Assembly (NCBI GenBank): GCA_015661715.1
Contig: DQVN01000159.1
Coordinates: forward strand, 1-14,596
Reading direction: 5' to 3'
Length of the DNA: 14,596 nt
From: Sulfurivirga caldicuralii
Lineage (GTDB): Bacteria > Pseudomonadota > Gammaproteobacteria > Thiomicrospirales > Thiomicrospiraceae
Notes under the pieces: model-generated
Seen by the model: the letters and a program-made list of their open reading frames with translations, nothing else
Databases searched by the model: none
What the model was told of the DNA's origin: nothing
Program-made: the position numbers and the translations under genes
In this document: positions 21 to 14,596 of the stretch, piece after piece
Layout: every line of letters starts with the position of its first letter
Position numbering within the stretch: position 1 is the first letter of the stretch

Positions 21-923
21 ATGAAAACGGGTTTGTTGACCTTATGGCGGGCATTGCGTCCGCCGTTTCTGTTGTTGAGCGTGGTGGTGGTGCTTTTGGC
101 CACCGCCTTGACGGTGTGGGAAGGGCATCCCTTCAATGGGCTGCACTTCACCTTGGCGTTGTTGGGCGCGCTGGCCGCCCATGGTGCGGTGAATCTGCTC
201 AATGAGTATGAGGATTGGCGTTCGGGGTTGGACAGCTTGACGGAGCGCACGCCCTTTAGCGGCGGCAGCGGGGCGCTGCAGCAACATCCCGAATACGCAG
301 GCCTGGTTCAAGCGGCGGCCTTTTTTCTGCTCGGTGTGGTGTTTGCCATTGGTGTCTATTTTTATCTATATGTGGGGATGGGGATTGTGCCCATCGGTCT
401 GGTGGGGCTGGGCTTGGTGGTGTTGTATACCTCCACCCTCACCCGTCACCCTTGGCTATGTTTGATTGCCGCCGGGCTGGCGTTTGGCCCCTTGATGGTG
501 TTGGGGACTTATTATGTGTTGACGGGTCAGATCAGCCAGCGGGCGGTGGTGGTGTCTCTGATTCCCTTCTTTCTGGTCAATAACCTGCTGCTGTTGAATC
601 AAATTCCCGATATGGCGGCTGACCGTCAGGTGGGGCGGCGTACATTTCCCATCGTCATGGGCCTGCCGCTGACTTTGCAGGTGTTCGACTTCTTTTTGCT
701 GGGCGCATATGGGGTGTTGGTATTGTTGGTGGCCAGCGCCATGCTGCCCACCTTGGCTTTGCTGGGGCTGATGACCCTCATCTTTGCTTTGCCCATGTTG
801 TTGGCGCTGAGGTGGGTGCGTGCAGGTCGGACCAGTGTTTTGCCCCGTGCCTTGGCGCTGAATGTGGTGATCAATCTACTGACACCCTTATTGATCGCCG
901 TGGCGCTGTGGTGGGCGGCGTGA
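21..923 (+). CDS. UbiA/MenA-family membrane prenyltransferase
   Basis: This 300-residue integral membrane protein belongs to the UbiA superfamily, which transfers a polyprenyl chain from its diphosphate to an aromatic or other acceptor at the inner membrane. Both Mg-diphosphate-binding motifs are visible. The first is N61-E-Y-E-D65 followed by D71, in the MenA-like spacing. The second is N193-Q-I-P-D197 followed by D201 and a G-R-R-T stretch. A conserved-looking R-T-P-F-S-G-G-S-G segment follows the first motif. The rest is a series of hydrophobic helices, consistent with about eight or nine membrane spans. A GGAGG ribosome-binding site at 12-16, 4 nt before the ATG, fixes the start. The second motif position is Glu rather than the usual Asp, which I believe also occurs in some MenA-like relatives. 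The closest named function would be 1,4-dihydroxy-2-naphthoate polyprenyltransferase (menA), but no men or ubi gene lies beside it, so the acceptor is unknown. Family is sure; substrate is not. Confidence 0.9.
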   Translation: MKTGLLTLWRALRPPFLLLSVVVVLLATALTVWEGHPFNGLHFTLALLGALAAHGAVNLLNEYEDWRSGLDSLTERTPFSGGSGALQQHPEYAGLVQAAAFFLLGVVFAIGVYFYLYVGMGIVPIGLVGLGLVVLYTSTLTRHPWLCLIAAGLAFGPLMVLGTYYVLTGQISQRAVVVSLIPFFLVNNLLLLNQIPDMAADRQVGRRTFPIVMGLPLTLQVFDFFLLGAYGVLVLLVASAMLPTLALLGLMTLIFALPMLLALRWVRAGRTSVLPRALALNVVINLLTPLLIAVALWWAA

Positions 924-997
924 AAACAGCCTGATTTTTTATACTACATACTTAGGTTGTTGTCGTAATTTGTTGATTTATTGTGAGATGCAATACC
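924..997 (+). promoter_or_regulatory. AT-rich gap, possible promoter of the downstream gene run
   Basis: This is the only intergenic space longer than 20 bp in the window, and it is clearly richer in A and T than its surroundings. A TATACT hexamer at 940-945 resembles a sigma-70 -10 box, but no convincing -35 box lies 16-18 bp upstream of it. TTGTTG at 957-962 resembles a -35 box but lacks a good -10 partner. I see no hairpin plus T-tract that would terminate the preceding gene. The placement, just ahead of a long run of overlapping genes, is the main argument for a promoter here. Confidence 0.3.
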
Positions 998-2041
998 ATG
1001 CGTAGGTATCTATTTGTTTTATTGGGCGGTGTCGTGTTGGTGGCGGGTTTGAGCGCCTGTAAGCAAGAGCAGGCTGACGCCCGTATCCCGCCGGTGGTCT
1101 GGACGGTTCAGCCCCACAAGGATCGGCCGACTTCCACCATTCAGTTGAGCGGTCGGGTGGTTGCCCTGCAGCAGAGCCCATTGAGCTTTCAAGTGCCGGG
1201 GCGGATTGTAGAACGCAAGGTTGAGGTGGGCGACCGGGTCCGCCGCGGCCAGGTCTTGATGGTGATCGATGACCGGGATTACCGCCTCAAGGTGGAGAAT
1301 TTGCAGGCCCAGATTAGCGCCACCGCTTCCGATCTGGAAACCGCCCGTCGGGATTTGCAGCGGCTGGAAAACCTTTTGCAGCGCAAGCTGGTATCCCAAC
1401 AACAGGTGGATAATGCGCGTAATCGGGTCACCCGATTGAAGGCTCAACTAGGTGCATTACAGCCCCAACTGGCGCAGGCGCGCAACCAGTTGGCCTATAC
1501 CCGCCTCAAAGCCCCTTTTGCTGGAGTGGTGACGGCCCGGCAGGTGGATATCGGCCAGGTGGTTGCGCCGGGTACGCCGGTGGTGACCGTGGCGGCGGAG
1601 GAACGGGGCGCGCGCTTTGACTGGCCGGAGACAGCGGGTCAGCCGCCGCAAGCGGTCATGCTTCGCTTTGATATGCAGGCTTTCACGGCCGTGTTGGACT
1701 ATATCTCGCCCCAGGCGGATCCTGTCAGCCGCACTTTTAGCGTGCGTTATCACTTGGGCCAGAAGGCGGTGCCCTTGGGACGCAGTGTGCAACTGAGGGT
1801 GGAACAAGCCGGTCAGCCGCTTTGGCGTGTGCCCCTGGCTGCGGTGCGTATGGAGCAAGGGCAGGCGATGGTGTTTGCTGTAGTAGATGATCGTATCCAG
1901 CCGGTCAAGGTGGCGGTGGAGCGCATGGATTCAGAACATGCTTGGGTGCGCGGGCCGCTGCAGCCCGATCTGTCCATTGTCAGTATGGGCGTGCATCGTT
2001 TGACGCCCGGTCAGAAGGTGCGAGCGCAGCGTCATGGATAG
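998..2041 (+). CDS. RND efflux periplasmic adaptor (membrane fusion) lipoprotein
   Basis: This is a MexA/AcrA/HlyD-type adaptor that links an inner-membrane RND pump to an outer membrane channel. The 347-residue product starts with a lipoprotein signal peptide ending in L-S-A-C, giving lipidated Cys21. The first half of the lipoyl domain lies at about 62-93 (P-G-R-I-V then V-G-D-R-V-R-R-G-Q). A coiled-coil hairpin spans about 95-165, and the second lipoyl half about 168-198 (A-P-F-A-G-V-V). Beta-barrel and membrane-proximal regions follow. I chose ATG 998 over an in-frame GTG at 983 because it gives a compact signal peptide with the Arg-Arg at the N-terminus, and because the only purine-rich stretch (GAG, 985-987) sits about 10 nt before it. 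The residue after Cys21 is Lys, which by the E. coli rule would not favour inner-membrane retention. The gene overlaps the pump gene by 8 bp. Confidence 0.92.
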   Translation: MRRYLFVLLGGVVLVAGLSACKQEQADARIPPVVWTVQPHKDRPTSTIQLSGRVVALQQSPLSFQVPGRIVERKVEVGDRVRRGQVLMVIDDRDYRLKVENLQAQISATASDLETARRDLQRLENLLQRKLVSQQQVDNARNRVTRLKAQLGALQPQLAQARNQLAYTRLKAPFAGVVTARQVDIGQVVAPGTPVVTVAAEERGARFDWPETAGQPPQAVMLRFDMQAFTAVLDYISPQADPVSRTFSVRYHLGQKAVPLGRSVQLRVEQAGQPLWRVPLAAVRMEQGQAMVFAVVDDRIQPVKVAVERMDSEHAWVRGPLQPDLSIVSMGVHRLTPGQKVRAQRHG

Positions 2042-5000
2042 ATTCAACCCTTCTGCCTGGGCGGTTCGGGAGAAGTCGCTGACGCTGTTTTTCATTCTGG
2101 TCACGCTGATCACCGGGACAGTGGCCTTTTTGACCAATGGGCGGGCGGAGGATCCCGCATTCAGCGTCAACGCCATGGTGGTGTCGGTGTACTGGCCGGG
2201 GGCGACGGTGGCGGAGATGGCTCAGCAGGTGGCGGATCCCCTGGAAAAACGGCTGGAGGAGATTGACTGGTTCGACCGGGTGGAGACCAAGGTGCGTCCA
2301 GGTCAGGTGGAGATGCTGGTCAATTTTTCCGATGCTACGCCCCATGGCATGAGTGAACAGTTGTTTTATCAGGTGCGCAAACGGCTGGGGGATGCGGCGC
2401 GCGAATTACCGCCGGGTGTGATCGGCCCCCTTTTCAAGGACGATTTCAAGGATGTCTATTTCACCCTTTATGCGTTGACTGCAACCGATGAGCAGATTGG
2501 CAACCGTGAGCTGGTCAAGGCGGCGGAGCAACTGCGCATCGCCTTGAGACGGGTGGAGGGGGTCAAGAAAGTGGTGCTGCTGGGTGAGCGCAAACCACAG
2601 ATTTTTATTGATCTGAATCTTGAGCGCCTGGCGGCGTTGGGCATCACCACCCATCAGCTCAAGCAGCAGATTGCCGCACAGGTGCAGATGACCGCGGGCG
2701 GTTTTGTGGAAACCCAGGGCCCGCGACTGCATGTGCGTATCGTGGAGCAGATGCGGGATCCGGTTGCTGCTTTGCAGCAGCTGCCCATCAGCCTCAACGG
2801 CAAGGTGTGGCGTCTGGGGGCGCTGGCGCATATCTGGCGCGGTTATGAAGACCCACCCAGCTTGATTATCCGCAGCCGCGGCAAGGAGGCGGTGCTGTTA
2901 GGGGTGGTGATGAATGAGAATGCGGACGGCCTGAAACTGGAGAAGGGACTGCGTGCCTTTGAGCAGCAATATCGCCCTCTGCTATCCGCCGGGATTCATT
3001 GGGATCTGTTGACCAACCAGGCTGAGGCGATTCATCGGGCGGTGGATGTCTTCCAGTGGAAGTTTGCGATCGCTTTGCTGGTGGTGATGCTGGTCAGCTT
3101 TCTGGCGCTGGGGTTGCGTGCCGGTATTGTGGTGGCCTTGGCGGTGCCTTTGACTTTGGCCATGACCTTTGTATTTATGAAAATCACCGGGATCGATTTC
3201 AACCGGATTTCCCTGGGCGCGCTGATTATCGCCCTGGGCTTGCTGGTGGATGATGCCATTATCGCCATCGAAATGATGATCGTGAAAATGGAGCAGGGGC
3301 TGGAAAAGATCAAGGCGGCCAGTTATGCCTGGACCCTGACCGCGGCGCCCATGCTGGTGGGTACGCTGGTGACCGCTTTGGGGTTCTTGCCCATTGGGTT
3401 GGCCCAGTCCCGCGTGGGCGAGTATGCGGGAGGGCTGTTTTGGGTCACCGCCATGGCGCTGATTGCTTCATGGCTGGTTGCGGTTCTGTTTACCCCCTAT
3501 CTGGGGGTGGCGCTGCTGCCTGAGCGATACAAACACGCGTCTGAGCCCTTGGATGAGCGGCCTTTTTTCCGCTGGTTGAATGGGGTGATTGAATATTGCG
3601 TGCGTCATCGCTGGTGGGTCATTGGTTTGACGGTCATGCTGTTTGCCCTCTCGGTAGTGGCCATGAACAAGGTGGTGGTCAAGCAATTTTTTCCCAGCTC
3701 AGATCGGCCGGAGCTGTTGATTGACATTTACCTGCCGGAAGGCAGCAGTTTTCAGGCCACCGAACAGGTGGTCAAGCGTCTCGAGCAGCAGTTGATGGGC
3801 GCTGAGGAGGTGCGAACGCTGTCCAGCTATATTGGCCAGGGCGCGCCGCGATTCTTTTTGGCGCTGAACCCGGAGCTGCCGAATCCCGCTTACGCCTCGA
3901 TGGTGGTGGTGGCGCATGATTGGCGGGCGCGGGATCGGCTGCAGGCACGGTTGCAGAAGATGATCCGTGAGGGGGCGTTTGCCGAGGCACGAGTGCGCGT
4001 GCATCCGCTGCTGTTCGGCCCGCCGGTGCCCTGGCCGGTGACCTTTCGGGTATTGGGCCCCGAACCTGAAACCTTGATTGATATTGCCGAGCAGATCCGT
4101 GCGCGGATGGCGCCCATGGCGTTTCTGGTCGATCCGCATCTGTCTTGGCGGACTCAAACCCCTCAGTTGACGATTCAGTGGAACCGCGACCGTTTGGCCC
4201 AGATGGGGTTGACGCCGGTGGATGTGGCCGAGCAACTGCACACCCTGTTGAACGGCACCGCCGTGGCCATGACCCTGGATGGAATCCGCACCCAGATGAT
4301 CCAGCTTCGCGGTGAGCCGAAACAAATCAGCGCTGAGGCGCTGAGCCGTTTGCCCATTAAGCTGCCGAATGGTCAGACAGTGCCGCTGAGCCTGTTGGGC
4401 GCGTTAGAGGTGACCATGGCCTATCCACTGATCGAGCGGCGCAATCGTGAGCCGGTCATCAGCGTCTATGCAGAGGTGGTGCCGGGTGTGCAACCGCCTG
4501 ATGCAACCCGGAAGGTGTGGCAGAAGATTCAGGATATCGTCTCCAATTTACCCCCTGGTTATCGGGTGGAAATCGGTGGTTCAGTGGAGGAGTCATCGAT
4601 TGCCCAGGCCTCGCTGAAGGTTAATATTCCATTGATGATCCTGTTGATTACCGTGCTGATCATGCTGTATATGCGCAGCTTTACCGGTCTGTTTATGGTG
4701 CTGGTGACCGCGCCCTTGGGGCTGATCGGGGCCGTATTGGCGTTGGTGCTGTTCAACCAGCCCTTTGGTTTTGTCGCCAATCTGGGGTTGATCGCTTTGG
4801 GGGGGATTCTGATGCGCAATACCTTGATTCTGACCGCGCAGATCGATGAAAACCGTCGTGCCGGCATGGCGATGCACGATGCGGTGGTGCAGGCCACGGT
4901 GACGCGCTCACGCCCGGTGTTGCTGACGGCGGCTGCGGCGGTGTTTGCTTTTGTGCCATTGACCACCTCCATTTTCTGGGGGCCCATGGCCTATGTGCTG

Positions 5001-5111
5001 ATTGGCGGCATTGTGGTGGGGACGTTGATCACGCTGTTTTTCCTGCCAGCGCTGTATGCGGTCTGGTTCAGGGTTAAAATGGCACCAACCGAGCAGAGGA
5101 CGATGGCATGA
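2034..5111 (+). CDS. RND-family multidrug efflux pump, inner-membrane permease
   Basis: This 1025-residue AcrB-superfamily transporter is a proton-driven exporter that works as a trimer with the adjacent adaptor. Its length is normal for the family. TM1 is at about 17-33, followed by an A-E-D-P segment and the periplasmic Y-W-P-G-A-T motif. TM4 carries the proton-relay pair D406-D407 (L-V-D-D-A-I). The second half mirrors the first, with a large periplasmic loop and a TM8-TM12 block at about 860-1010. In TM10 the position of AcrB Lys940 is Arg928 (L-M-R-N-T). Arg is, as I recall, usual in the subfamily with the A-E-D-P start, so the relay is probably intact. The gene has only a weak, distant Shine-Dalgarno sequence and overlaps the adaptor gene by 8 bp, suggesting translational coupling. 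Substrates cannot be read from sequence; drugs, dyes, detergents or bile-like compounds are typical. Confidence 0.95.
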   Translation: MDRFNPSAWAVREKSLTLFFILVTLITGTVAFLTNGRAEDPAFSVNAMVVSVYWPGATVAEMAQQVADPLEKRLEEIDWFDRVETKVRPGQVEMLVNFSDATPHGMSEQLFYQVRKRLGDAARELPPGVIGPLFKDDFKDVYFTLYALTATDEQIGNRELVKAAEQLRIALRRVEGVKKVVLLGERKPQIFIDLNLERLAALGITTHQLKQQIAAQVQMTAGGFVETQGPRLHVRIVEQMRDPVAALQQLPISLNGKVWRLGALAHIWRGYEDPPSLIIRSRGKEAVLLGVVMNENADGLKLEKGLRAFEQQYRPLLSAGIHWDLLTNQAEAIHRAVDVFQWKFAIALLVVMLVSFLALGLRAGIVVALAVPLTLAMTFVFMKITGIDFNRISLGALIIALGLLVDDAIIAIEMMIVKMEQGLEKIKAASYAWTLTAAPMLVGTLVTALGFLPIGLAQSRVGEYAGGLFWVTAMALIASWLVAVLFTPYLGVALLPERYKHASEPLDERPFFRWLNGVIEYCVRHRWWVIGLTVMLFALSVVAMNKVVVKQFFPSSDRPELLIDIYLPEGSSFQATEQVVKRLEQQLMGAEEVRTLSSYIGQGAPRFFLALNPELPNPAYASMVVVAHDWRARDRLQARLQKMIREGAFAEARVRVHPLLFGPPVPWPVTFRVLGPEPETLIDIAEQIRARMAPMAFLVDPHLSWRTQTPQLTIQWNRDRLAQMGLTPVDVAEQLHTLLNGTAVAMTLDGIRTQMIQLRGEPKQISAEALSRLPIKLPNGQTVPLSLLGALEVTMAYPLIERRNREPVISVYAEVVPGVQPPDATRKVWQKIQDIVSNLPPGYRVEIGGSVEESSIAQASLKVNIPLMILLITVLIMLYMRSFTGLFMVLVTAPLGLIGAVLALVLFNQPFGFVANLGLIALGGILMRNTLILTAQIDENRRAGMAMHDAVVQATVTRSRPVLLTAAAAVFAFVPLTTSIFWGPMAYVLIGGIVVGTLITLFFLPALYAVWFRVKMAPTEQRTMA

Positions 5112-6007
5112 CCCGTTGGCAAACATTGGAAGAGACCATCGGCAACACGCCGTTGGTGCAGGTCTGCCGTATGGCAGCGTTGGATAACGGATCGGTGGTG
5201 CTGGTTAAGCTGGAAGGCAATAATCCAGCCGGTTCGGTCAAGGATCGCCCCGCTTTCAATATGATCAAGCAGGCCCAGGTACGGGGGGAGATCCGCCCCG
5301 GTGATACCCTGATCGAGGCCACCAGCGGCAATACGGGTATTGCGTTGGCCATGGCGGCGGCCATGATGGGCTACCGCATGCGCCTGATCATGCCGGAGAA
5401 TATGAGTCTGGAGCGCCGTGCCAGCATGGCGGCCTTTGGCGCAGAGCTGGTGCTGGTTAGTGCCGAGGCGGGGATGGAAGGGGCGCGGGATCTGGCTCAA
5501 GAGATGGCCGCCCGTGGCGAGGGGTATGTGCTGGATCAGTTCGCCAATGCGGACAACTGGAAGGCCCATTATCTGACCACGGGGCCGGAGATCTGGCGGC
5601 AGACCCAGGGGCGTATCACCCATTTTGTCAGCGCCATGGGCACCACAGGCACCATTATGGGTGTCAGTCGTTATCTCAAGGAGCAGAACCCAGATATCTC
5701 CGTGGTGGGGGTGCAGCCGGCGGAAGATGCCAGCATTCCGGGCATTCGCCGCTGGCCGCCTGAATATCTGCCCCGTATCTACGATCCGCACTGGGTGGAT
5801 GAGCTGCGGGATGTGGCCCAGGCGGATGCGGAGGAGACCACCCGGCAGTTGGCGCGTCAGGAGGGTATCTTCGCCGGGATCTCTTCCGGTGGGGCCATGT
5901 ATGTGGCCCTGCAGGTGGCCGCAGCAGTGCCGGACAGCGTGGTGGTGACCATTGCCTGTGACCGGGGGGATCGTTATCTGTCCACGGGGGTCTTTCCACC
6001 GGCATGA
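5108..6007 (+). CDS. cysM: Cysteine synthase B (O-acetylserine sulfhydrylase, CysM type)
   Basis: This PLP enzyme of 299 residues makes cysteine from O-acetylserine and sulfide, or S-sulfocysteine from thiosulfate in the CysM branch. The PLP-binding lysine is K45 in N-P-A-G-S-V-K-D-R. The substrate-binding T-S-G-N-T-G loop is at 72-77 and the PLP phosphate-binding G-T-T-G-T loop at 178-182. A late G-I-S-S-G-G motif completes the fold type II signature. The stretch I-P-G-I-R-R-W-P followed by E-Y is characteristic of CysM rather than CysK, as is the length near 300. The start overlaps the pump stop as ATGA, and AGAGGA at 5095-5100 is a good ribosome-binding site. No sulfate-assimilation gene is nearby, so co-transcription with an efflux pump appears incidental or growth-linked. 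The call is firm; preference for thiosulfate versus sulfide is inferred. Confidence 0.93.
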   Translation: MTRWQTLEETIGNTPLVQVCRMAALDNGSVVLVKLEGNNPAGSVKDRPAFNMIKQAQVRGEIRPGDTLIEATSGNTGIALAMAAAMMGYRMRLIMPENMSLERRASMAAFGAELVLVSAEAGMEGARDLAQEMAARGEGYVLDQFANADNWKAHYLTTGPEIWRQTQGRITHFVSAMGTTGTIMGVSRYLKEQNPDISVVGVQPAEDASIPGIRRWPPEYLPRIYDPHWVDELRDVAQADAEETTRQLARQEGIFAGISSGGAMYVALQVAAAVPDSVVVTIACDRGDRYLSTGVFPPA

Positions 6008-6786
6008 TGGCACATAACATCCTGGTTTTCGACATTGAAACCGTGCCGGATGTGGATGCGGGGCGGCGGCTGTTATCCTTGACCGGGCTCAGCGATGCGC
6101 AGGTGGTGGAGGCGATGAAGCTGCACCGCTACAGCGAGGCGGGCACGGAATTTCAGCGTCACCATCTGCATCGTATTGTGGCCATTTCCGTGGTGTTGCG
6201 TACCGCCGAGACGCTGCAGGTGTGGAGTCTGGGCACAGCGGAGAGTGACGAGAAGGCGTTGGTACAGCGGTTTTTCGAAGGAGTGGAGCGTTTTCAGCCC
6301 ACCCTGGTGAGCTGGAATGGGTCCGGCTTTGATCTGCCGGTGCTGCACTACCGGGCGTTGCTGCACGGCGTGGAAGCGCGCACGTACTGGGATACGGGCC
6401 ACTTTGACCGTGAACGGAAGTGGGATAACTATATTAGTCGTTATCAGTTCGCCCATATTGATGTGATGGATGTGCTCTCCGGTTATCAGCCTCGGGCTGC
6501 TGCGAAACTGGATGAAATTGCCGTGATGTTGGGATTGCCGGGCAAGATGGGGCAGAGTGGGGCAGAGGTCACCGAACAGTGGCTGGCCGGGGAGATCGAA
6601 GCGATTCGCAATTACTGTGAGACGGATGTGGTCAATACCTATCTGATCTACCTGCAATTTGAGCGCATGCGCGGGCGACTGACGGAATCCCAGTGGCGGC
6701 AGTTGCGCCGACAGATGCGTGATTATTTGCTCAACAGTGGGCGCGCCCACTTACAGGCGTATGCAGAGGCATGGCATGAATCCTGA
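6004..6786 (+). CDS. Predicted 3'-5' exonuclease, PolB-exonuclease-like (DEDDy)
   Basis: This 260-residue protein belongs to the stand-alone exonuclease family related to the proofreading domain of B-family DNA polymerases. The ExoI motif is D10-I-E12 in F-D-I-E-T-V-P-D. The ExoII motif is S-W-N-G-x-x-F-D110, and the ExoIII motif is Y204-C-E-T-D208, giving the Y-x(3)-D form of DEDD nucleases. All four acidic metal ligands and the tyrosine are therefore present, so activity as a single-strand DNA or RNA 3'-5' exonuclease is expected. The start overlaps the cysM stop in the string ATGATG, so either 6004 or 6007 could be the initiation codon; I took the first. There is no signal peptide, so the protein is cytoplasmic. 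It ends 11 bp inside the next gene. The exact substrate is unknown. Confidence 0.88.
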   Translation: MMAHNILVFDIETVPDVDAGRRLLSLTGLSDAQVVEAMKLHRYSEAGTEFQRHHLHRIVAISVVLRTAETLQVWSLGTAESDEKALVQRFFEGVERFQPTLVSWNGSGFDLPVLHYRALLHGVEARTYWDTGHFDRERKWDNYISRYQFAHIDVMDVLSGYQPRAAAKLDEIAVMLGLPGKMGQSGAEVTEQWLAGEIEAIRNYCETDVVNTYLIYLQFERMRGRLTESQWRQLRRQMRDYLLNSGRAHLQAYAEAWHES

Positions 6787-7093
6787 ACACATCAGGCAGC
6801 GAATCGAAGATTTGAAATCCCGTGGCATTGTTTCGCCAGAAGATGAGGCGCGCATTGAACGGGATCTGGCCGCTGCAAACTGGGCGGATGTGGAAATATT
6901 TCTCAATCAGTTGGAAATCGAAGCGCGCTTTCGCAGCTGGCGGCCCATTATTCGGCTGGCCATGTTTTCCAGTCTGATTTCTGCGCTTGTTTTAATGGGC
7001 GTGGTGGTCTGGGTCGCCACCACCCACCCGGAACAGATTGAGGCCTTAAAAGGACGGCAAAGCCAACATGAAACAGAGCAACCGCGAGATTGA
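6776..7093 (+). CDS. Small single-pass membrane protein of unknown function
   Basis: I do not recognise this 105-residue protein. The first 55 residues are charged and predicted to be helical, with two Glu/Arg-rich segments. One hydrophobic span lies at about 61-81, followed by a short polar tail. Positive residues just before the span (R51, R53, R56, R60) suggest that the N-terminus is cytoplasmic. The frame stays open further upstream, but I chose ATG 6776 because CAGAGG at 6764-6769 is a well-spaced ribosome-binding site and because the upstream extension is only the shadow of the exonuclease gene. It overlaps the exonuclease by 11 bp and the CYTH gene by 26 bp, so its expression is probably coupled to both. 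The tight overlaps and the clean charge/hydrophobic layout argue that it is a real gene. Confidence 0.7.
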   Translation: MNPEHIRQRIEDLKSRGIVSPEDEARIERDLAAANWADVEIFLNQLEIEARFRSWRPIIRLAMFSSLISALVLMGVVVWVATTHPEQIEALKGRQSQHETEQPRD

Positions 7094-7580
7094 GCGCAAA
7101 TTTCTGGTCATAGGTGATGCCTGGAAGCAGCAGGCCTATCGCCGCTGTCATTTTGCTCAAGGTTACTTGAACAATGCCGCCAATCCGGAAAACAAATGCT
7201 CCGTTCGAGTGCGCATCGAGGGCGATGAAGCCACGCTGAATATCAAAAGCATGGAGATCGGCCTCAGCCGGGATGAGTATGAGTACGCCATTCCGTTACA
7301 GGATGCGGAGAAGATGCTCAAAACGCTGGTGATTGGCCCGGTGGTGGAAAAGATCCGTTACTGGGTGGAGTATGCCGGTTTTGTTTGGGAAATTGATGAG
7401 TTTCTGGGGGACAACGCTGGATTGGTGGTGGCGGAGGTGGAGCTGCCGGATGAACAGACCCAGCCGCCGCTGCCTGATTGGGTGGGCCAGGAAGTGACCC
7501 ACGAACTGCGTTATTACAATGTGGCGCTGGCGCAGCGCCCGTACAAGGATTGGGGTGATGAGGAGAAAAATCCGCAATAG
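7068..7580 (+). CDS. CYTH-domain protein, putative inorganic triphosphatase
   Basis: This 170-residue protein is a stand-alone CYTH (triphosphate tunnel metalloenzyme) domain. The signature E-x-E-x-K appears as E7-I-E9-R-K11 in E-I-E-R-K-F-L at the N-terminus. Further tunnel-type charged residues follow: R-V-R-I on an early strand, E-K-I-R-Y in the middle, and paired acidic strands (W-E-I-D-E-F, then V-A-E-V-E-L). It lacks the C-terminal CHAD domain of larger ygiF-type proteins and resembles the short bacterial tunnel enzymes that hydrolyse inorganic triphosphate. Adenylate cyclase or thiamine triphosphatase activity is also found in the superfamily and cannot be excluded. The start codon lies inside the preceding gene by 26 bp, with a somewhat distant AAAAGGA (7048-7054) upstream. 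The 3' end overlaps the outer membrane factor gene by 23 bp. Confidence 0.87.
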   Translation: MKQSNREIERKFLVIGDAWKQQAYRRCHFAQGYLNNAANPENKCSVRVRIEGDEATLNIKSMEIGLSRDEYEYAIPLQDAEKMLKTLVIGPVVEKIRYWVEYAGFVWEIDEFLGDNAGLVVAEVELPDEQTQPPLPDWVGQEVTHELRYYNVALAQRPYKDWGDEEKNPQ

Positions 7581-8886
7581 CCTGTTGCTGTTGGCGCTGG
7601 CAACGCCCACTGCCTGGGCCGATAGGGGGCTGTTGGATATCTGGAAACTGGCCGTGCAGCAGGATGCCCAATTGGCTCAGGCTAAAGCCCAGTATGAGGC
7701 GGATCGGCTGCAGTTGAAGCGGGCGCGGGCGGCCCTGTTGCCTCAGGTCAACCTTAATGCCACATGGGCGGATAGGGAGAGTGATCTGCCCAATAGCGGG
7801 GGAGATGTGCGCAGTCGCCAGATCAGCATAAACGCCCAGCAGGTGCTCTACAACCGTAAGGCGTGGGTGGCCTACGATATTGCCCAGCAACAAGTGCAGC
7901 AGGCGGCGCTGGCCTGGCGGCAGGCGCAGCAGGATCTGATGGTGCGGGTGGTTAAGGCCTATTTTGATGTGCTGCTGAGCCAGGCCGATGTGCGTCTGAC
8001 CCGCGCGTTGGAGCAGGCCAACAGGTTGCAATGGCAGCGGGCCTTGACCGCGGAAAAGGTGGGATTGGCGGCCAATACGGATGTGCTGCAGGCCCGGTCG
8101 GCCTATGATCTGTCACGGGCGGATCGCATCAAGGCGGAGAATGGGCTCAATATCGCTTATGAGAACCTGGCTAAGCTCACAGGACAACGCATCACTGCCC
8201 TGAAATCGATCGGCGTGGATTCTGCGCTGCCCCCGGTGCAATCAAATGAAGCACAGTGGCTGCAGCGGGCTCTGGAGAATAACCTGCAGCTTAAGATTGC
8301 CGCCTATCAAGTCACCCAAGCCCGATTGAATGTGGCCCTGAATAAGGGAGATTACCTGCCGACTTTGGCCTTGACAGCCGCCCTGACCGATACGGCCTAC
8401 GAGGGTTATGACCGTCGCTATGCGTCCACCTTTACCGACAACCGCAACCGTCAGGTGGCCTTACAGTTGAACTGGCCGATTTACAGCGGCGGCCTTACCC
8501 GGGCGACGGTGGAGCAGGCCCGTTATCAGGTGAACAAGGCACTGGCCGCGGAGCGGGATCTGCGCGAAAGCACCGCCTTGCAGGTGCGGGTACTGGTTGA
8601 CAATCTGCGCAATGGCATGGCGCTGGTGGAGGCGCTGCGTGCTGCGGTGGTCTCCAGTCAAGCTTTTTTACAAGCGGCTGAGGAGAGCCATCGGGTCGGG
8701 TTGAAGAGCATGCTGGATGTGCTCAGCGCCCGGGCCAATGCCCATAAGGCACAGCGTGACCTGATTGCAGCGTTGAATGACCTGGTGATCAATCGTATCA
8801 ATCTGGAAGCGGTGGCCGGGGACTTGAACGAGGCGGATCTGGCGCGAATTGAATCCCTGCTGGTGGCGGGTGATGGCCCACCATGA
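7558..8886 (+). CDS. TolC-family outer membrane efflux protein
   Basis: This 442-residue protein is a TolC-type outer membrane channel, forming trimers whose beta-barrel spans the outer membrane and whose helical tunnel docks on an RND adaptor. A signal peptide occupies residues 1-21, with a cleavage site after A-W-A. The mature part shows two homologous outer-membrane-efflux repeats rich in long amphipathic helices with many Ala, Gln, Leu and Arg (first about 30-215, second about 230-430). I chose ATG 7558 because AAGGA at 7545-7549 is well spaced, and starting there puts the signal peptide at the N-terminus. The longer in-frame GTG start would overlap the CYTH gene more and bury the signal. 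The most likely partners are the adaptor and pump genes upstream, although four other genes intervene. It overlaps the next gene as ATGA. Confidence 0.92.
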   Translation: MRRKIRNSLLLLALATPTAWADRGLLDIWKLAVQQDAQLAQAKAQYEADRLQLKRARAALLPQVNLNATWADRESDLPNSGGDVRSRQISINAQQVLYNRKAWVAYDIAQQQVQQAALAWRQAQQDLMVRVVKAYFDVLLSQADVRLTRALEQANRLQWQRALTAEKVGLAANTDVLQARSAYDLSRADRIKAENGLNIAYENLAKLTGQRITALKSIGVDSALPPVQSNEAQWLQRALENNLQLKIAAYQVTQARLNVALNKGDYLPTLALTAALTDTAYEGYDRRYASTFTDNRNRQVALQLNWPIYSGGLTRATVEQARYQVNKALAAERDLRESTALQVRVLVDNLRNGMALVEALRAAVVSSQAFLQAAEESHRVGLKSMLDVLSARANAHKAQRDLIAALNDLVINRINLEAVAGDLNEADLARIESLLVAGDGPP

Positions 8887-10367
8887 GGTTGACGCGGCGC
8901 GGCTTAGTGACCCTGACGGTCAGTTTGCCCATGGTGGGGTGCGACGCCTCGCCTGCTGCAGCGGATCCGTGGACGATCCGCATGGGCGTGGCCAATCTGC
9001 CGGGTCGGTTGAATCCTATTTATGCCACCGATGCCCTCTCCAGTCGCATCAACCGGCTGCTCTATCGTGCCTTAACCGACTTTGATCAGACCTTACGTCC
9101 GGTGCCGGATCTGGCACGCTGGCAACAGTTGGATTCCCTGAGCTGGCAGTTTGAGCTGATTGACCGGCCTCGATTTCCTGACGGTCAGCGTGTATCGGCA
9201 CAGGATGTGGCCGCCACCTACCGCCACCTGCTGCATCCTGCAACCGGCTCTCCTTTGCGCGGCAGTCTGGCCCATATTCGGCAGGTTGTGGCCCTCAGTG
9301 CCCACCGGGTGCGTTTTAGGCTCCAACGCCCGGATCCCCTTTTTCCCGAGCGACTCAATATTGGTATTTTGCCGGCCCGTCTGCTTGCCCAGGGCCATGA
9401 TTTCGATGCTCAGCCTTTTGGCTGCGGGCCGTGTCGGTTTGCTCATCGTGATGCCCAGCAGGTGACGCTGCGCCGCCCCGATGGGGTCTCCTTGCAGTTT
9501 GTGCGGGTCAAGGACCCGTTGGTGCAGGTGCTGAAACTGCGCAAGGGAGAGCTGGATCTGGTTCAAGGGGGGCTGTCGCCGGAGCTGGTGAATTATTGCG
9601 CCCATCGCCCTGAGCTGCGCGTTGCCTGGCACAGGGGAACCAATTTTGCCTACTTGGGGTTCAATTTTCGCGATGCCGCCTTGCGTCAGTTACCCGTGCG
9701 TCGCGCCATCGCCCATGGCGTTGACCGGGAAGCCATTGTGCGCGCCTTTTTTCACGGCCATGCGCAGCTTGCCGGATCATTGCTGGCGCCGACACACTGG
9801 GCGGCCTTGTCCGACTGGCGAGGCTATGAGTATGATCCGGAACGCGCCCGGATGCTGTTGCACCAGGCGGGCTTTAAGCGTTTGCGCTTGAGTTATAAAA
9901 CCAGCGCCAACCCCTTGCGTCTGCGCCTGGCCGCTGTGTATCAGGATATGTTGCAGGATTGTGGCATTGATCTGGAGATCCAGAGTTTCGACTGGGGCAC
10001 TTTTTACGGGGATATCAAGCAGGGCCGTTTTCAGCTCTACTCTTTGGCCTGGGTGGGAGTCAAAAGCCCGGATATCTTTCAGTATGTGTTCCACTCATCC
10101 ATGACCCCGCCTGCAGGCGCCAATCGCGGCCGCTATCGGGATGCGCAGGTGGATCGGTTGATCGAAGCGGCGCTGCAGGCGCCCACGGAAGCTCAGCAGC
10201 GCAAGCTGTATCATGCCCTGCAGCGTCGGCTGGCCGAAACCGTGGCGGTGGTGCCCCTGTGGTATGAAGATCAATATGCGGTGATGCGCCAGGGCTTGCA
10301 GGGCTATCGCCTGTATGCCGATGGGCGTTATGATGGTCTGTTGAGCGCCACCAAAGGGTCCCCCTAA
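8883..10367 (+). CDS. ABC importer substrate-binding lipoprotein, peptide (Opp/Dpp) family 5
   Basis: This 494-residue protein resembles OppA/DppA-type binding proteins, which capture oligopeptides, nickel chelates or murein peptides outside the inner membrane. The signal peptide has a T-R-R-G start, a short hydrophobic core and Cys20 in M-V-G-C, so it is a likely lipoprotein. Asp at +2 after the Cys matches the inner-membrane retention signal known from E. coli. The family-5 fold is seen in the early N-P-I-Y segment, the F-P-D-G-x-x-V-x-A-x-D-V stretch, a Y-L-G-F-N-F strand, the V-R-R-A-I-A-H-G-V-D-R block, and the C-terminal V-P-L-W-Y. The start overlaps the tolC-like stop as ATGA. The permeases follow after one intervening gene. 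Neighbouring YkuD and NagZ genes make murein peptides or muropeptides the best substrate guess; this is inference from context. Confidence 0.88.
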   Translation: MRLTRRGLVTLTVSLPMVGCDASPAAADPWTIRMGVANLPGRLNPIYATDALSSRINRLLYRALTDFDQTLRPVPDLARWQQLDSLSWQFELIDRPRFPDGQRVSAQDVAATYRHLLHPATGSPLRGSLAHIRQVVALSAHRVRFRLQRPDPLFPERLNIGILPARLLAQGHDFDAQPFGCGPCRFAHRDAQQVTLRRPDGVSLQFVRVKDPLVQVLKLRKGELDLVQGGLSPELVNYCAHRPELRVAWHRGTNFAYLGFNFRDAALRQLPVRRAIAHGVDREAIVRAFFHGHAQLAGSLLAPTHWAALSDWRGYEYDPERARMLLHQAGFKRLRLSYKTSANPLRLRLAAVYQDMLQDCGIDLEIQSFDWGTFYGDIKQGRFQLYSLAWVGVKSPDIFQYVFHSSMTPPAGANRGRYRDAQVDRLIEAALQAPTEAQQRKLYHALQRRLAETVAVVPLWYEDQYAVMRQGLQGYRLYADGRYDGLLSATKGSP

Positions 10368-10385
10368 AATTTTTCAAGGTCGAAA

Positions 10386-10874
10386 ATGGCAACGCCAAAA
10401 CACATCGAAATCAGCCTGAAACGGCAGGAAATGGCCTGTTTTGAGCAAAACAGGCTCATTTTGCGTTTTGTGGTGAGTACCGCTGCGGCGGGGGCGGGTT
10501 GTCGTATGGGTTCTGGGTGTACGCCCACGGGGCGGCATATTATTCGCGCCAAAATCGGCGCCGGACTGGATCCCTATGCGGTGTTGGTGGGGCGGCGGCC
10601 CACCGGTGAGGTTTGGACGCCGCAATTGCAAGCGATGCATCCAGGTCGGGACTGGATTTTGGGGCGGATTCTCTGGCTCAGCGGTTGTGAGGTGGGACAC
10701 AATCGCCTGGGGCAGGTGGATACCATGCGCCGCTATATCTATATTCATGGTGCGGCGCCGACGGCGCCGATGGGGGTGCCCCGCTCCTGTGGTTGTGTCC
10801 GTATGCGCTGTGAGGATGTGGTGCGGCTGTTTGACTGGGCCCATGTGGGTACGCGGGTGGAGATCATGCCATGA
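10386..10874 (+). CDS. Cytoplasmic YkuD-domain protein, ElsL-like L,D-carboxypeptidase candidate
   Basis: This 162-residue protein is a bare YkuD (L,D-transpeptidase fold) domain. The active site is Y-I-Y-I-H121-G, then 15 residues on S134-C135-G-C137-V-R139-M. C137 is the nucleophile position and H121 the upstream conserved His. There is no signal peptide or membrane span, so unlike LdtA-LdtF it should act in the cytoplasm. That is the architecture of ElsL from Acinetobacter baumannii, a YkuD enzyme that removes the terminal D-Ala from murein tetrapeptides during recycling. The usual S-H-G-C motif here reads S-C-G-C, so activity is not assured. AAGG at 10376-10379 is a good ribosome-binding site, and residues around 6-12 match the usual first strand, supporting this start. 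The gene sits between the binding protein (18-bp gap) and the first permease (ATGA overlap). Confidence 0.85.
   Translation: MATPKHIEISLKRQEMACFEQNRLILRFVVSTAAAGAGCRMGSGCTPTGRHIIRAKIGAGLDPYAVLVGRRPTGEVWTPQLQAMHPGRDWILGRILWLSGCEVGHNRLGQVDTMRRYIYIHGAAPTAPMGVPRSCGCVRMRCEDVVRLFDWAHVGTRVEIMP
10434..10455 (+). repeat. Perfect inverted repeat (9-bp arms, 4-base loop) inside the YkuD gene
   Basis: The arms GCCTGTTTT (10434-10442) and AAAACAGGC (10447-10455) are exactly complementary and flank the loop GAGC. In RNA a flanking G-U pair (10433 and 10456) would extend the stem to ten pairs. It is followed by the T-rich but interrupted sequence CATTTTGCGTTTT, so it is terminator-like but not a clean intrinsic terminator. 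It lies 49-70 nt into the YkuD coding region, just after the binding-protein gene. It could protect the 3' end of the upstream message or attenuate transcription. Confidence 0.6.
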
Positions 10875-11785
10875 GCCGTCTGCTGCAACTGTTGGGGGAG
10901 TTGGCCTTTACCCTCTGGGCAGTGGGTACTTTGGTGTTCTTGATGCTGCATCTGGTGCCTGGGGATCCAGTGGCGGTGATGTTGGGGGAGGGTGCCAATG
11001 CAGTGGATCAGGCGGCTTTGCGGGCGCAATTGGGCTTGGATCAGCCCTTATGGATGCAGTATGTCCACTGGTGGGGCAATCTGTTGCAGGGTGATCTGGG
11101 CCGCTCGCTGTTTTGGCATCAGCCGGTGGCGGCGCTCATTGGCGAGCGTCTGGTCTATACGGTGCAACTGGCGGTATTGGCGCTGGGGTTTGCGCTGCTT
11201 TTGGCCTTGCCGTTGGGGGTGTGGGCGGCGCTGCATGCCGGGCGCTGGCCGGATAGTCTGGCCATGGGGGTGTCTCTGTTGGGGGTGTCTATTCCCAATT
11301 TCTGGTTGGGGCCGGTGCTGATTCTCTTCTTTTCCCTGTGGCTGGGGTGGTTGCCGGTCAGCGGTGTGCAGGCGCCACTGGCGTGGGTGTTGCCGACGCT
11401 GACGTTGGGGACGGCATTGGCGGCCATTCTCACCCGCATGGTGCGCGCCAGTTTACTGGAGGTGCTGCATGAAGATTACCTGCGCACAGCGCGAGCCAAA
11501 GGATTGCCGCAGCGGGTGGTGATCTGGCGGCATGCCTTGGGCAACGCCCTCTTGCCGGTGGTGACGGTGTTGGGGCTGCAGTTGGGCACGCTGCTGGGGG
11601 GGGCGGTGATCACGGAGGTGGTCTTTGACTGGCCGGGGCTGGGGCAGTTGCTGGTGGAGAGTATTCAGCGGCGGGATTATCCCGTGGTTCAGGGGGTGAT
11701 GCTGGTGGTTACGGCTGCCTATGTGCTGGTCAATGCCTTGACGGAATGGCTTTATACCCGGTTGGATCCCAGGGTGCGCCCATGA
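10871..11785 (+). CDS. ABC importer permease, DppB/OppB type
   Basis: This 304-residue membrane protein is the first permease of a peptide-type ABC importer. The N-terminal helix is followed by the family signature H-L-V-P-G-D-P and a G-L-D-Q-P-L segment with W-x-x-N-L-L-Q-G-D-L-G. These are hallmarks of the DppB/OppB branch. About six membrane spans are visible. The cytoplasmic coupling loop that contacts the ATPase is at about 205-225, with A-R-A-K-G at 207-211 followed by R-H-A-L-G-N. The start overlaps the YkuD gene as ATGA, with GGAG at 10859-10862 as ribosome-binding site. An eight-G run at 11596-11603 lies in the coding sequence. The DppC-type permease follows directly, but no ATPase gene is seen. 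Confidence 0.93.
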   Translation: MSRLLQLLGELAFTLWAVGTLVFLMLHLVPGDPVAVMLGEGANAVDQAALRAQLGLDQPLWMQYVHWWGNLLQGDLGRSLFWHQPVAALIGERLVYTVQLAVLALGFALLLALPLGVWAALHAGRWPDSLAMGVSLLGVSIPNFWLGPVLILFFSLWLGWLPVSGVQAPLAWVLPTLTLGTALAAILTRMVRASLLEVLHEDYLRTARAKGLPQRVVIWRHALGNALLPVVTVLGLQLGTLLGGAVITEVVFDWPGLGQLLVESIQRRDYPVVQGVMLVVTAAYVLVNALTEWLYTRLDPRVRP

Positions 11786-12573
11786 GACTTTGGCTGGGGA
11801 TTCTGCTGTTGTGGGGACTGATGGCCGTGGCTGGCTGGGGGGTGGGCAATGGGGCCATGGCGGTGCAGTTGGACAAGCTGTTGGCTCTACCGGACTGGCA
11901 GAGCTGGTTGGGTTATGATCAGTTGGGTCGGCCGGTGGGGGCGCGCCTGTTGCTGGGGGCGCAGACCTCTTTGGTGGTGGCTTTGAGTGTGGTCAGTCTT
12001 TCTGCCCTGATCGGCACGGCCATCGGCTTGGTCAGCGGCTATGTGGGCGGCTGGTTGGATCGTTTCGTGGTGCGGGTGATCGATGTGTTTCTGGCCTTTC
12101 CCGGGCTGTTGCTGGCCATTGGCATGGCGGCTGTGTTGGGTCCAGGGGTGGAGAATGTGATTATCGCGCTGGTGGTGGTGGGCTGGGTGAGTTATGCCCG
12201 TTTGGCGCGGGCGCAGACGTTGAGTCTGCGCAGTCGGGAACATGTGTTGGCGGCGCGGGCATTGGGGGCCGGGCATGGGCGCATTCTGCTGCGCCATGTG
12301 CTGCCGTTGATTATGGCACCTTTGGGGGTGGAGATGTCCTTTGGCGTGGCGGGCGCGGTGATCAGCGAAGCGGGGCTCTCTTTTCTGGGGCTGGGGGTGC
12401 AGCCGCCAGCGGATTCCTGGGGGAGCATGATACGGGAAGGCACCCGCTATATGTTGGTGGCGCCCCATTTGGTATTGGCGCCGGGGTTGGCGTTGATGCT
12501 GGTGGTATTGGCCGCTAATCGCCTGGGGGATCACTGGCGGGATCGGTTGGATGTAAAGAGGTTGGATGGATGA
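11782..12573 (+). CDS. ABC importer permease, DppC/OppC type
   Basis: This is the second permease of the importer, 263 residues, slightly shorter than typical DppC because the region before the core is brief. After the first membrane span comes the family's G-Y-D-Q-L-G-R motif (G-T-D-x-x-G-R in many relatives), then the transmembrane core. The coupling loop reads A-A-R-A-L-G-A-G with R-H-V-L-P, and near the C-terminus comes the S-F-L-G-L-G-V-Q-P-P segment typical of DppC/OppC. I chose ATG 11782 because it overlaps the upstream stop as ATGA and has AGGG at 11771-11774. A longer in-frame start would lie well inside the upstream gene. It pairs with the preceding permease to form the channel. It ends in another ATGA overlap with nagZ. 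Confidence 0.92.
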   Translation: MRLWLGILLLWGLMAVAGWGVGNGAMAVQLDKLLALPDWQSWLGYDQLGRPVGARLLLGAQTSLVVALSVVSLSALIGTAIGLVSGYVGGWLDRFVVRVIDVFLAFPGLLLAIGMAAVLGPGVENVIIALVVVGWVSYARLARAQTLSLRSREHVLAARALGAGHGRILLRHVLPLIMAPLGVEMSFGVAGAVISEAGLSFLGLGVQPPADSWGSMIREGTRYMLVAPHLVLAPGLALMLVVLAANRLGDHWRDRLDVKRLDG

Positions 12574-13604
12574 AAACACGAGCCATGGCGCTGGGTGCGG
12601 TGATGGTGGATCTGGCAGGGCCAACTTTGAGCGAGGCGGAGCGTGAGCGGCTGCTGCATCCTCAGGTGGCGGGGGTGGTGTTGTTTACCCGCAACTTTGA
12701 AAGTTGGCAGCAGTTGGCCGACCTGTGTGAGCAGATCCACCGGCTGCGTCAGCCGCGACTGTTGATTGCGGTGGATCACGAGGGGGGACGGGTGCAGCGC
12801 TTTCGTCAGGATGGCTTTACCCCTTTGCCGCCCATGGCGCGCTTGGGAAAGCTGCACGATCTCAATCCCATGGCGGCGGATGAGGCCGCCAGGGCGCTGG
12901 GCTGGTTGATGGCGGCTGAGCTGTTGGCGGTGGGAGTGGATTTTAGTTTTGCGCCGGTGGTGGATTTGAACCACGGGCGCAGTCAGGTCATCGGTGAACG
13001 CAGTTTTCATGGGCAAGCGCAGACAGTGGCGCAGTTGGCCGGTCAGTGGTTAGCGGGCATGCATGAGGCGGGCATGGCGGGGGTGGCTAAACATTTTCCG
13101 GGTCATGGCTTTGCCCAGGCAGACAGCCATACAGATGTGGCGGTGGATGAACGTGATTGGGAGGCATTGCAGGCGGATCTATTACCCTTTCAGGCGCTGA
13201 TCGCGCAACGGGTGGAGGGTATTATGCCGGCCCATGTCATCTACCCCGCCGTGGATACGCGTCCGGCGGGTTTTTCTCCGCACTGGCTGCAGACCATTCT
13301 GCGCCAGCAGATGGGATTTGACGGCGCCATTATCAGTGATGATCTGAATATGGCGGCCGCTAAGGCTGTGGGCAATATTGTCAAGCGCGCTGAGCTGGCA
13401 TTGGCTGCCGGTTGCGATCTGTTATTGGCGCTCAATGATGTGGCCGGTGCGGATAGGCTACTGTACGGTTTGGATTACCCTATCCGGCCGCTATCCCAGG
13501 CACGGCGCATCGCTTTACACGGGCGGGCGCGGTTCAATGTGAAAAACTTGCGTCGACAACGGCAGTATGCCCTGGCACAACACTATATGGAGCAGTTGAT
13601 ATGA
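12570..13604 (+). CDS. nagZ: Beta-N-acetylglucosaminidase NagZ (glycoside hydrolase family 3)
   Basis: NagZ removes N-acetylglucosamine from GlcNAc-anhydroMurNAc and its peptides in the cytoplasm during peptidoglycan recycling. The 344-residue product is a single GH3 barrel of the Gram-negative type, with no signal peptide. The diagnostic K-H-F-P-G-H-G stretch is followed by D185-S186-H187, the mobile-loop Asp-His pair that serves as acid/base in this family. The nucleophile region is I-S256-D257-D258-L. Other conserved parts are V-D-H-E-G-G-R-V-Q-R-F near residue 70 and F-A-P-V-V-D-L-N near 130. All catalytic residues look intact. AAGAGG at 12556-12561 is a well-spaced ribosome-binding site, and the start overlaps the permease stop as ATGA. 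Context with a peptide importer and a YkuD protein supports the recycling role. Confidence 0.95.
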   Translation: MKTRAMALGAVMVDLAGPTLSEAERERLLHPQVAGVVLFTRNFESWQQLADLCEQIHRLRQPRLLIAVDHEGGRVQRFRQDGFTPLPPMARLGKLHDLNPMAADEAARALGWLMAAELLAVGVDFSFAPVVDLNHGRSQVIGERSFHGQAQTVAQLAGQWLAGMHEAGMAGVAKHFPGHGFAQADSHTDVAVDERDWEALQADLLPFQALIAQRVEGIMPAHVIYPAVDTRPAGFSPHWLQTILRQQMGFDGAIISDDLNMAAAKAVGNIVKRAELALAAGCDLLLALNDVAGADRLLYGLDYPIRPLSQARRIALHGRARFNVKNLRRQRQYALAQHYMEQLI

Positions 13605-14596
13605 ATGAGATTTTATCCTTGATGCAGCAAAATTGGCCGGCGGGTTATGCCGTTTGGCTGCAGGTGGTGCAGTTTTTCGGCGGCCAGGTGTGGCTGTTGC
13701 TGGCGAGCATTGTGCTGGTTGGAGCGCTGGTGGTGGATGCGCTGCAGCGTATGTTGGTGGGCATGCTGGTCAACCGCTGGACCCATCGTCACCCCTGGTT
13801 GAATGCTTTTGTCCAGGGGCTGAATCCGCCCTTGTCCGCCTATATCTGGCTGAGTGCGCTGGTGTGGGTGGTGATGCTGGTGATGGGACAGTTTGCGTTG
13901 GCAACCGACTGGGTGCCATCCCTTGCGCGCCTTAAATCCACCCTCGCCACCTTGATGCTGGGGTGGTATGTGATTCGGGTTGTCGGCTTTCTCGAAAGTC
14001 ATTTGAAAGTGGTGGCGGATACGGATCCTCGATTTGATCGTACCCTGGTGGAAGCGCTGGGTAAGGTGATTCGCCTGAGCGCGGTGGTGATTACCGGGCT
14101 GATTGTGCTGTCCGCTTTTGGGGTGAATATTGCTGGACTTCTGGCCTTTGGCGGCGCGGGGGGATTGATTGTGGGTTTAGCCGCCAAAGACATGTTGGCC
14201 AATCTATTCGGTGGATTGACTATTTATTTGGATCGCCCTTTTGCTGTGGGAGACTGGATCCGGTCACCGGATAAGGACATCGAAGGGGTGGTGGAGCATA
14301 TCGGTTGGCGGCGCACGGTGATTCGTCGCTTCAATAAAAACCCCCTTTATGTACCCAATGGGTTGTTTACCAACATTGTGGTGGAAAACCCCAGTCGGAT
14401 GAGCCATCGGCGCATCTATGAGAAAATTGGCGTGCGTTACGCTGACATGGATAAGGTGTCCCAGTTGACTGCTGAGATCAAGTCCATGTTGGAACAGCAT
14501 CCCGACATCGACCATACCCAGACCATTATCGTCAACTTCAATCGCTTTGCCGATTCGGCCCTGGAGTGTTTCATCTACTGCTTTACCAAGACCACG
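13601..14596 (+). CDS. MscS-family mechanosensitive ion channel (3' end cut by window)
   Basis: The frame from ATG 13601 stays open for 332 codons to the window edge, so the C-terminus is missing. The N-terminal part has several membrane spans (about 30-50, 78-96, 110-130 and 158-178). The pore-lining helix is at about 181-206, with G-G-A-G-G-L-I-V-G-L-A-A-K-D and N-L-F-G-G. It is followed by D-R-P-F-x-V-G-D-W-I, the start of the MscS beta domain, and then P-N-G-L-F and the C-terminal alpha/beta region. Extra N-terminal spans place it with the larger YnaI/YbdG-like channels rather than minimal MscS. These open under membrane tension during osmotic downshock. GGAG at 13589-13592 and an ATGA overlap with nagZ support the start. 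A role linked to wall recycling is possible but only by position. Confidence 0.93.
   Translation, partial: MNEILSLMQQNWPAGYAVWLQVVQFFGGQVWLLLASIVLVGALVVDALQRMLVGMLVNRWTHRHPWLNAFVQGLNPPLSAYIWLSALVWVVMLVMGQFALATDWVPSLARLKSTLATLMLGWYVIRVVGFLESHLKVVADTDPRFDRTLVEALGKVIRLSAVVITGLIVLSAFGVNIAGLLAFGGAGGLIVGLAAKDMLANLFGGLTIYLDRPFAVGDWIRSPDKDIEGVVEHIGWRRTVIRRFNKNPLYVPNGLFTNIVVENPSRMSHRRIYEKIGVRYADMDKVSQLTAEIKSMLEQHPDIDHTQTIIVNFNRFADSALECFIYCFTKTT

Follow-up and report, generated by a model that had tools for sequence, protein, structure and literature searches.

The array in the window and its conserved neighbourhood

We analysed a stretch of 14,596 nucleotides from Sulfurivirga caldicuralii (contig DQVN01000159.1 of assembly GCA_015661715.1), hereafter the window, in which genes for a candidate ATP-binding cassette (ABC) importer of the peptide class lie among genes for predicted enzymes of murein recycling. 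A family-5 substrate-binding lipoprotein (SBP5), an ElsL-like YkuD protein, a DppB-type and a DppC-type permease, and NagZ are encoded in that order on one strand between 8883 and 13604; these five genes will be called the array. The features are as follows.

8883..10367, + strand: SBP5 family-5 substrate-binding lipoprotein (Pfam SBP_bac_5, 182.8 bits; lipobox Cys20; twin-arginine-like signal TRRGLVTL)
10386..10874, + strand: leaderless ElsL-like protein of the YkuD type, probably a cytoplasmic L,D-carboxypeptidase (Pfam YkuD, 76.5 bits; SCGC with Cys137; His121)
10871..11785, + strand: DppB-type permease (Pfam BPD_transp_1, 149.0 bits, and BPD_transp_1_N; NCBIfam Opp2B, 352.3 against a cut-off of 350)
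11782..12573, + strand: DppC-type permease (ATGA start; longest open reading frame from 11746; Pfam BPD_transp_1, 101.7 bits)
12570..13604, + strand: NagZ beta-N-acetylhexosaminidase (NCBIfam PRK05337, 436.4 bits, cut-off 207)
10871..10874, + strand: ATGA start-stop overlap of ElsL and DppB, read from the junction sequence; two more at 11782-11785 and 12570-12573
7068..7580, + strand: CYTH-domain gene (Pfam CYTH), conserved neighbour upstream of the array (26 of 56 DppB-bearing genomes)
13601..14596, + strand: MscS-type channel, truncated by the contig end, conserved neighbour downstream of the array (22 of 56 DppB-bearing genomes)

With an SBP_bac_5 protein and two BPD_transp_1 permeases, the array has the components of a peptide/nickel ABC importer of the DppABC class. 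Its transporter genes encode ABC permeases and not, as judged with the TIGR00901 model, a major facilitator superfamily protein of the AmpG type. NagZ carries KHFPGHG at residue 174 and DSH at residue 185, which we take to be the motifs of this enzyme. An earlier note on this DNA had read the same five genes in the same order, with ATGA overlaps at three of the four junctions, and this reading was borne out: SBP5 and ElsL are separated by an 18-base gap, and the ElsL-DppB, DppB-DppC and DppC-NagZ junctions are ATGA when the DppC start is taken as 11782. The same type of overlap is found at the TolC-SBP5, NagZ-MscS, RND-CysM and CysM-exonuclease junctions. Because overlaps run on into unrelated genes, ATGA coupling alone does not define the array as a module, and the start-stop overlaps, which had been offered as a sign of a functional unit, are not specific and are no evidence of shared function here.

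The YkuD protein (162 residues, beginning MATPKHIEISLKRQEM) had been described as signal-less and ElsL-type. No signal peptide was seen by eye, and its best NCBIfam model is indeed ElsL (NF040925), though its 141.5 bits remain under the cut-off of 270. In structural terms it has what is expected of ElsL, a short leaderless YkuD domain with His121 and Cys137, which we presume to be the catalytic residues. The SxGC motif reads SCGC in the window protein and SHGC, SIGC or other variants in its relatives, with the cysteine kept. SIGC replaces SHGC in 35 of 110 ElsL loci, mostly betaproteobacterial (for example L032, L035 and L042), which questions the need for the histidine of SHGC. ElsL of Acinetobacter baumannii (PMC8649774) is likewise a leaderless YkuD protein and is the best NCBIfam counterpart of the window protein, which differs from it in having SCGC instead of SHGC and in scoring below the curated cut-off. 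According to the available part of that paper, ElsL acts on tetrapeptide-bearing substrates, is distributed among Gamma- and Betaproteobacteria and comes from a host possessing AmpG, and an importer link is not mentioned there; the word nagZ is absent from its main text.

Conservation of the array was followed in 24 genomes of the host's family and 15 others (39 in total), and in 185 genomes taken from across the class, in which DppB orthologues were accepted at E <= 1e-70. ElsL matches were present in 36 of the 39. The 22 family loci that were fetched do not include G002, the sole family genome without an ElsL match; following ElsL, DppB was present in all 22, DppC in 21 and NagZ in 20, the contig of L116 stopping after DppB. 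SBP5 shared a stretch with ElsL in 14 of the 22 loci, sometimes kilobases off. Class-wide, 56 of the 185 genomes had a DppB orthologue. DppC adjoined it in 55 of these; NagZ lay no more than 2.6 kb away in 40, ElsL no more than 3 kb away in 32 and SBP5 no more than 5 kb away in 38, and CYTH and MscS were neighbours in 26 and 22, respectively. Neighbours were scored by tblastn with the window proteins, so that a distant copy, or one beyond a contig end, is scored as missing. The comparison of neighbourhoods that the earlier note had proposed thus came out in its favour, as 50 of the 56 genomes have NagZ or ElsL linked to DppB. Among 89 loci examined, 79 had DppB; 43 of these combined SBP5, DppB and NagZ, and the rest were partial. 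The gene order of the array is kept far beyond chance. In some named genomes the frame is retained and the importer is not: L097 shows CysM, exonuclease, CYTH, ElsL, NagZ and MscS minus SBP5, DppB and DppC.

Some further features of these loci were recorded. Upstream of the array, the genes UbiA-HlyD-RND-CysM-exonuclease-CYTH-TolC at window positions 21-8886 follow one another with overlapping stop and start codons at several of their junctions; half of the 22 family loci (11), and L217 outside the family, have TolC placed between CYTH and SBP5. A 124-residue open reading frame at 6719-7093 had no Pfam or NCBIfam match and has a 62% identical stretch in G003. Unrelated genes interrupt the array at L142:10338-13514 and L130:8224-9629, splitting ElsL from DppB or SBP5 from ElsL, and the insertion in L130 includes a possible DNA methyltransferase, judged by eye. 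The host (G000, in which the window makes up all of contig C62) is a Sulfurivirga-like bacterium: G003 is of the same genus, and its translated SBP5 is identical, save for the start residue, to a protein named as that of Sulfurivirga caldicuralii. Close relatives of SBP5 are named as Hydrogenovibrio, Thiomicrorhabdus and Thiomicrospira, and the NCBI taxonomy places Sulfurivirga under Piscirickettsiaceae.

AmpG, LdcA and the distribution of the array

In textbook accounts, AmpG is the door through which recycled wall fragments enter, and muropeptide signalling begins with it. The earlier note had suggested looking for ampG and ldcA in the host, and both were found to be lacking. AmpG (TIGR00901) was detected in none of the 24 family genomes, host included, and in 14 of the 15 genomes outside the family (13 above the cut-off), the exception being G033, a member of another family which carries the array. 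LdcA was likewise detected in none of the 24 family genomes and in one of the 39 overall, outside the family. AnmK was present in all 24 family genomes. Mpl scored above its cut-off in 21 of them, that is, in the genus-mate G003 and 20 others, unlike the host (G000), G001 and G002.

The class-wide draw allowed this complementarity to be counted. DppB without AmpG was found in 29 genomes, neither in 11, both in 27 and AmpG without DppB in 118, part of the no-match genomes in the AmpG, DppB and ATPase listings (20 of the 40 AmpG-lacking ones) having been assigned by elimination. DppB is therefore present in 29 of 40 AmpG-lacking genomes versus 27 of 145 AmpG-bearing ones (odds ratio 11.5, p 3e-10, a value inflated, like those that follow, by shared ancestry). 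The association was retained when only near-complete genomes were used (23, 8, 25 and 106 in the same order; p 1e-8), when only linked DppB was counted (p 7e-8) and under the strict AmpG cut-off (p 1e-8). Counting once per family gave p 5e-9, with counts collapsed from family labels, 165 families assumed and G190 counted alone. In 19 named genomes, AmpG was lacking in all three with the importer and present in all 16 without it (15 above the cut-off); these 19 are a subset of 80 named loci, made up of L052 and L100 together with the 18 loci that include NagZ, less L034 (hence 17), and their completeness is unstated.

A tree of joined DppB and DppC sequences (50 rows, each with a DppB and a DppC of suitable length) required 11 changes of the AmpG-lacking label (10-13 across bootstrap replicates, the bootstrap not having settled), at least four of which are forced by well-supported branches. 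Loss of AmpG, or its regain, has therefore happened more than once in the lineages that carry the importer. Since the array is found beside recycling enzymes, and mostly where AmpG is lacking, it is probably the missing wall-reuse route of AmpG-lacking bacteria.

Clues to the ligand

We then considered what the importer may carry. Fifty binding proteins were aligned, namely that of the window and, out of 51 orthologues extracted, all but L251 and the partial L116. They proved tightly conserved, with 36 invariant positions; the fold was confidently predicted to be that of a cluster C binder. According to the available part of PMC12136057, R383 of E. coli DppA holds the carboxylate of the peptide and D436 its amino group, and these meet E41 and R42 of DppB. 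In a profile alignment with E. coli DppA as the sole reference, the position of D436 is occupied by I, V or L in all 50 sequences. On the permease side, E41 of E. coli DppB aligns with E40 of the window protein, and R42 falls opposite a one-residue gap; among 77 DppB sequences, the acidic residue of the scoop loop is kept (E in 59, D in 17, R in 1) and is followed by Arg in two. As far as these alignments tell, both halves of amino-terminus recognition, in the binding protein and in DppB, are missing together. Because the residues that anchor the amino group are missing, an N-blocked (anhydro)muropeptide is a likelier ligand than a free murein tripeptide; an amino end tied to N-acetylmuramic acid (MurNAc) would suit the missing anchor, a fit drawn from alignment rather than from a liganded structure.

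These residues bear directly on the possibility that the array imports free murein peptides in the manner of MppA/Opp, the sugars being removed outside, the tri- or tetrapeptide imported and ElsL trimming it. The parallel had been drawn in the earlier note, and the peptide class of the permeases and binding protein agrees with it, as does the action of ElsL on tetrapeptide-bearing substrates (available part of PMC8649774). We regard it as unlikely, given that the Asp anchoring the alpha-amino group is lacking in 50 of 50 binding proteins, that 75 of 77 DppB sequences have no Arg behind the acidic residue of the scoop, and that the NagZ linkage (40 of 56) and the AmpG complementarity would be left unexplained. 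What stands of the earlier proposal, uptake of murein fragments with processing in the cytoplasm, is the part carried by genomic linkage and AmpG complementarity; the free tripeptide as ligand has become less likely.

The array could also be a nickel-metallophore or general peptide importer that sits by chance in an old conserved gene neighbourhood. Nickel is a live rival for the ligand: DppB exceeds the cut-off of the NCBIfam nickel permease model Opp2B (352.3 versus 350), the structures that best match the binding protein include NikZ, and the host apparently has a hydrogenase (G000:C93, start codons chosen by eye). However, the Opp2B margin is 2 bits, DppC scores under the cut-offs of its nickel models (Opp2C, 260.4 versus 300), and neither the AmpG complementarity nor the linkage to NagZ or ElsL (50 of 56) is expected for nickel. 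A nickel or general peptide importer seems to us distinctly improbable, and an importer of muropeptides is the reading that we carry forward.

A side observation concerns the binding protein itself. A regular expression recovered its twin-arginine-like lipoprotein signal (window 8883-8945 and orthologues) in 11 of the 14 sequences extracted from the family and in none of 37 from outside it. As this signal is confined to the family, the SBP5 lipoprotein may there have switched to export by the twin-arginine translocation (Tat) pathway.

Possible source of the ATPase and the proposed route

The earlier note had pictured a self-contained route, and this part did not hold: no ATPase match was found within 2.7 kb of array genes in any of the 79 DppB-bearing loci. 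With no ATPase at the array, it must be supplied from elsewhere. Exactly two OppB-type permeases were found in 23 of the 24 family genomes, the DppB of the array and a second one whose gene is close to that of a fused double ATPase (some 545 residues; in G021 the second permease and the ATPase are on separate contigs). In G000, G003 and G006, the second system reads NppA-B-C-D beside an apparent fabI, recognised by eye. This separate operon resembles the opp-fabI/Npp operon of Pseudomonas aeruginosa; it differs from the array in its binding protein and permeases and is proposed only as the ATPase source. Class-wide, a YejF/NppD-type ATPase match (E <= 1e-60) was found in 53 of 56 DppB-bearing genomes versus 89 of 129 others (p 6e-5), fused genes having been seen at most fetched loci and not confirmed for every match.

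The surroundings of the ATPase were covered in 50 of the 56 DppB-bearing genomes (all except G008, G049, G121, G142, G186 and G194). Permeases lay within 3 kb of it in 42 of the 50. An ATPase without adjoining permeases was found in G055 and G199 (one family; the sole match in each), in G126, in G138 (both loci) and in G201 (one of two loci), and in G070 just one permease of the set is left beside it. Two permease-free cases at contig ends (L294 of G059 and L303 of G024) were not counted, and G034 has a permease 8 kb away. In G126 (L286:1011-3312), the permease-free YejF-type ATPase lies directly behind murU (MurU 292.2, NCBIfam cut-off 250), with mobile-element genes (integrase, TraI-like) adjoining the site.

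That the separate Yej/Npp system, and not the array, substitutes for AmpG, as YejBEF-YepA does in Agrobacterium (PMC9790009), would agree with the second OppB-type permease near a fused ATPase in 23 of 24 family genomes (where both are on one contig), with the NppABCD-like order in the three genomes inspected and with the ability of YejBEF to import muropeptides (available part of PMC9790009), but it is very unlikely, because in genomes without the array DppB the ATPase is present in 5 of 11 lacking AmpG versus 84 of 118 bearing it, because the ATPase stands permease-free in several DppB-bearing genomes, and because YepA is reported from Alphaproteobacteria only (available part of PMC9790009). 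In genomes without DppB, then, the ATPase is no marker of AmpG loss, and what goes with this loss is the array rather than the Yej/Npp system alone.

The array may be compared with several known systems. YejBEF-YepA of Rhizobiales and Rhodobacterales (PMC9790009) is similarly a peptide-class ABC importer that replaces AmpG and has its transporter parts at separate loci. In contrast, the array has its own binding protein and both permeases, linked to ElsL and NagZ, with the ATPase alone elsewhere; permeases and ATPase, encoded together in YejBEF, are apart in the 79 DppB-bearing loci; DppB reaches 115.8 against a YejB cut-off of 445 and DppC 90.6 against a PRK15021 cut-off of 439; and the array is found in Gammaproteobacteria, YejBEF-YepA in Alphaproteobacteria, to which YepA is described as exclusive in the available part of the paper (PMC9790009). 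By these scores and gene contents, the array resembles YejBEF-YepA in its predicted working and is not a member of it, and an arrangement of SBP5, ElsL, DppBC and NagZ is not treated in the available part of that work (PMC9790009). The fold class of binding protein and permeases is shared with MppA plus OppBCDF and with DppABCDF of E. coli; the array differs in lacking the amino anchor for free peptides in its binding protein and permease and in having no ATPase genes. The MppA route imports murein tripeptide. In Bacillus subtilis, dppABCDE-ykfABCD likewise combines a peptide ABC importer with murein-peptide enzymes in one cluster, the enzymes being other ones; it has its own ATPases and no NagZ. 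No paper describing the array was found in a literature search of open-access papers.

Taken as a whole, we consider that the conserved array is probably an ABC muropeptide importer that replaces AmpG and borrows its ATPase, the pairing with the fused ATPase being held with less confidence than this. We infer its ligand, transport and direction of flux, and the ATPase pairing, along the following route. The SBP5 lipoprotein would capture lytic-transglycosylase products, i.e. N-acetylglucosamine (GlcNAc)-anhydro-MurNAc-peptides, in the periplasm and pass the muropeptide to the DppBC pore, for which the YejF/NppD-type ATPase, a fused double ABC protein whose gene lies at another place in the genome, would supply the energy. 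NagZ would remove GlcNAc from the imported fragment, and ElsL would shorten the tetrapeptide to the tripeptide for re-use. The array would thereby replace AmpG, and ElsL would replace LdcA.

Several observations weigh against this proposal. As regards distribution, 27 of the 56 DppB-bearing genomes also match AmpG (21 above the cut-off), so that AmpG and the array are not mutually exclusive; DppB is missing from 11 of the 40 AmpG-lacking genomes; and shared ancestry, as said, inflates the significance of the association. ElsL is close to DppB in just 32 of the 56 genomes and NagZ in 40. No Mpl above the curated cut-off was found in the host, G001 and G002, all fragmented assemblies. The closest solved structures of the binding protein bind nickel, glutathione, a dipeptide or an unassigned ligand, and none suggests muropeptides. 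As regards the ATPase, its presence can be explained without sharing where its own permeases adjoin it, in 42 of 50 genomes. One of the five genomes with a clearly lone ATPase, G138, possesses AmpG, and another, G126, shows additional ATPase matches that were not inspected and 1 kb of contig on one side; a second case of MurU beside the ATPase was sought and none was found outside G126. No YejF/NppD-type ATPase reached the threshold in G075, G142 and G186: G075 has an ATPase pair only, within another complete system, and G142 and G186 have no oligo_HPY ATPase whatsoever. Finally, the fused ATPase gene of the host (L258, G000:C116:1-1576) is frameshifted near a contig end, which may be an assembly fault.

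With these points set against the linkage and the AmpG complementarity, we lean slightly towards the broader view that Gammaproteobacteria have an ABC muropeptide importer of their own, independent of YejBEF-YepA and using a borrowed fused ATPase, which permitted repeated loss of AmpG. If this is true, a second door would explain recycling in many AmpG-less Gammaproteobacteria, an ABC importer would have a binding site for blocked peptides, and a peptide importer would depend wholly on an ATPase encoded elsewhere.

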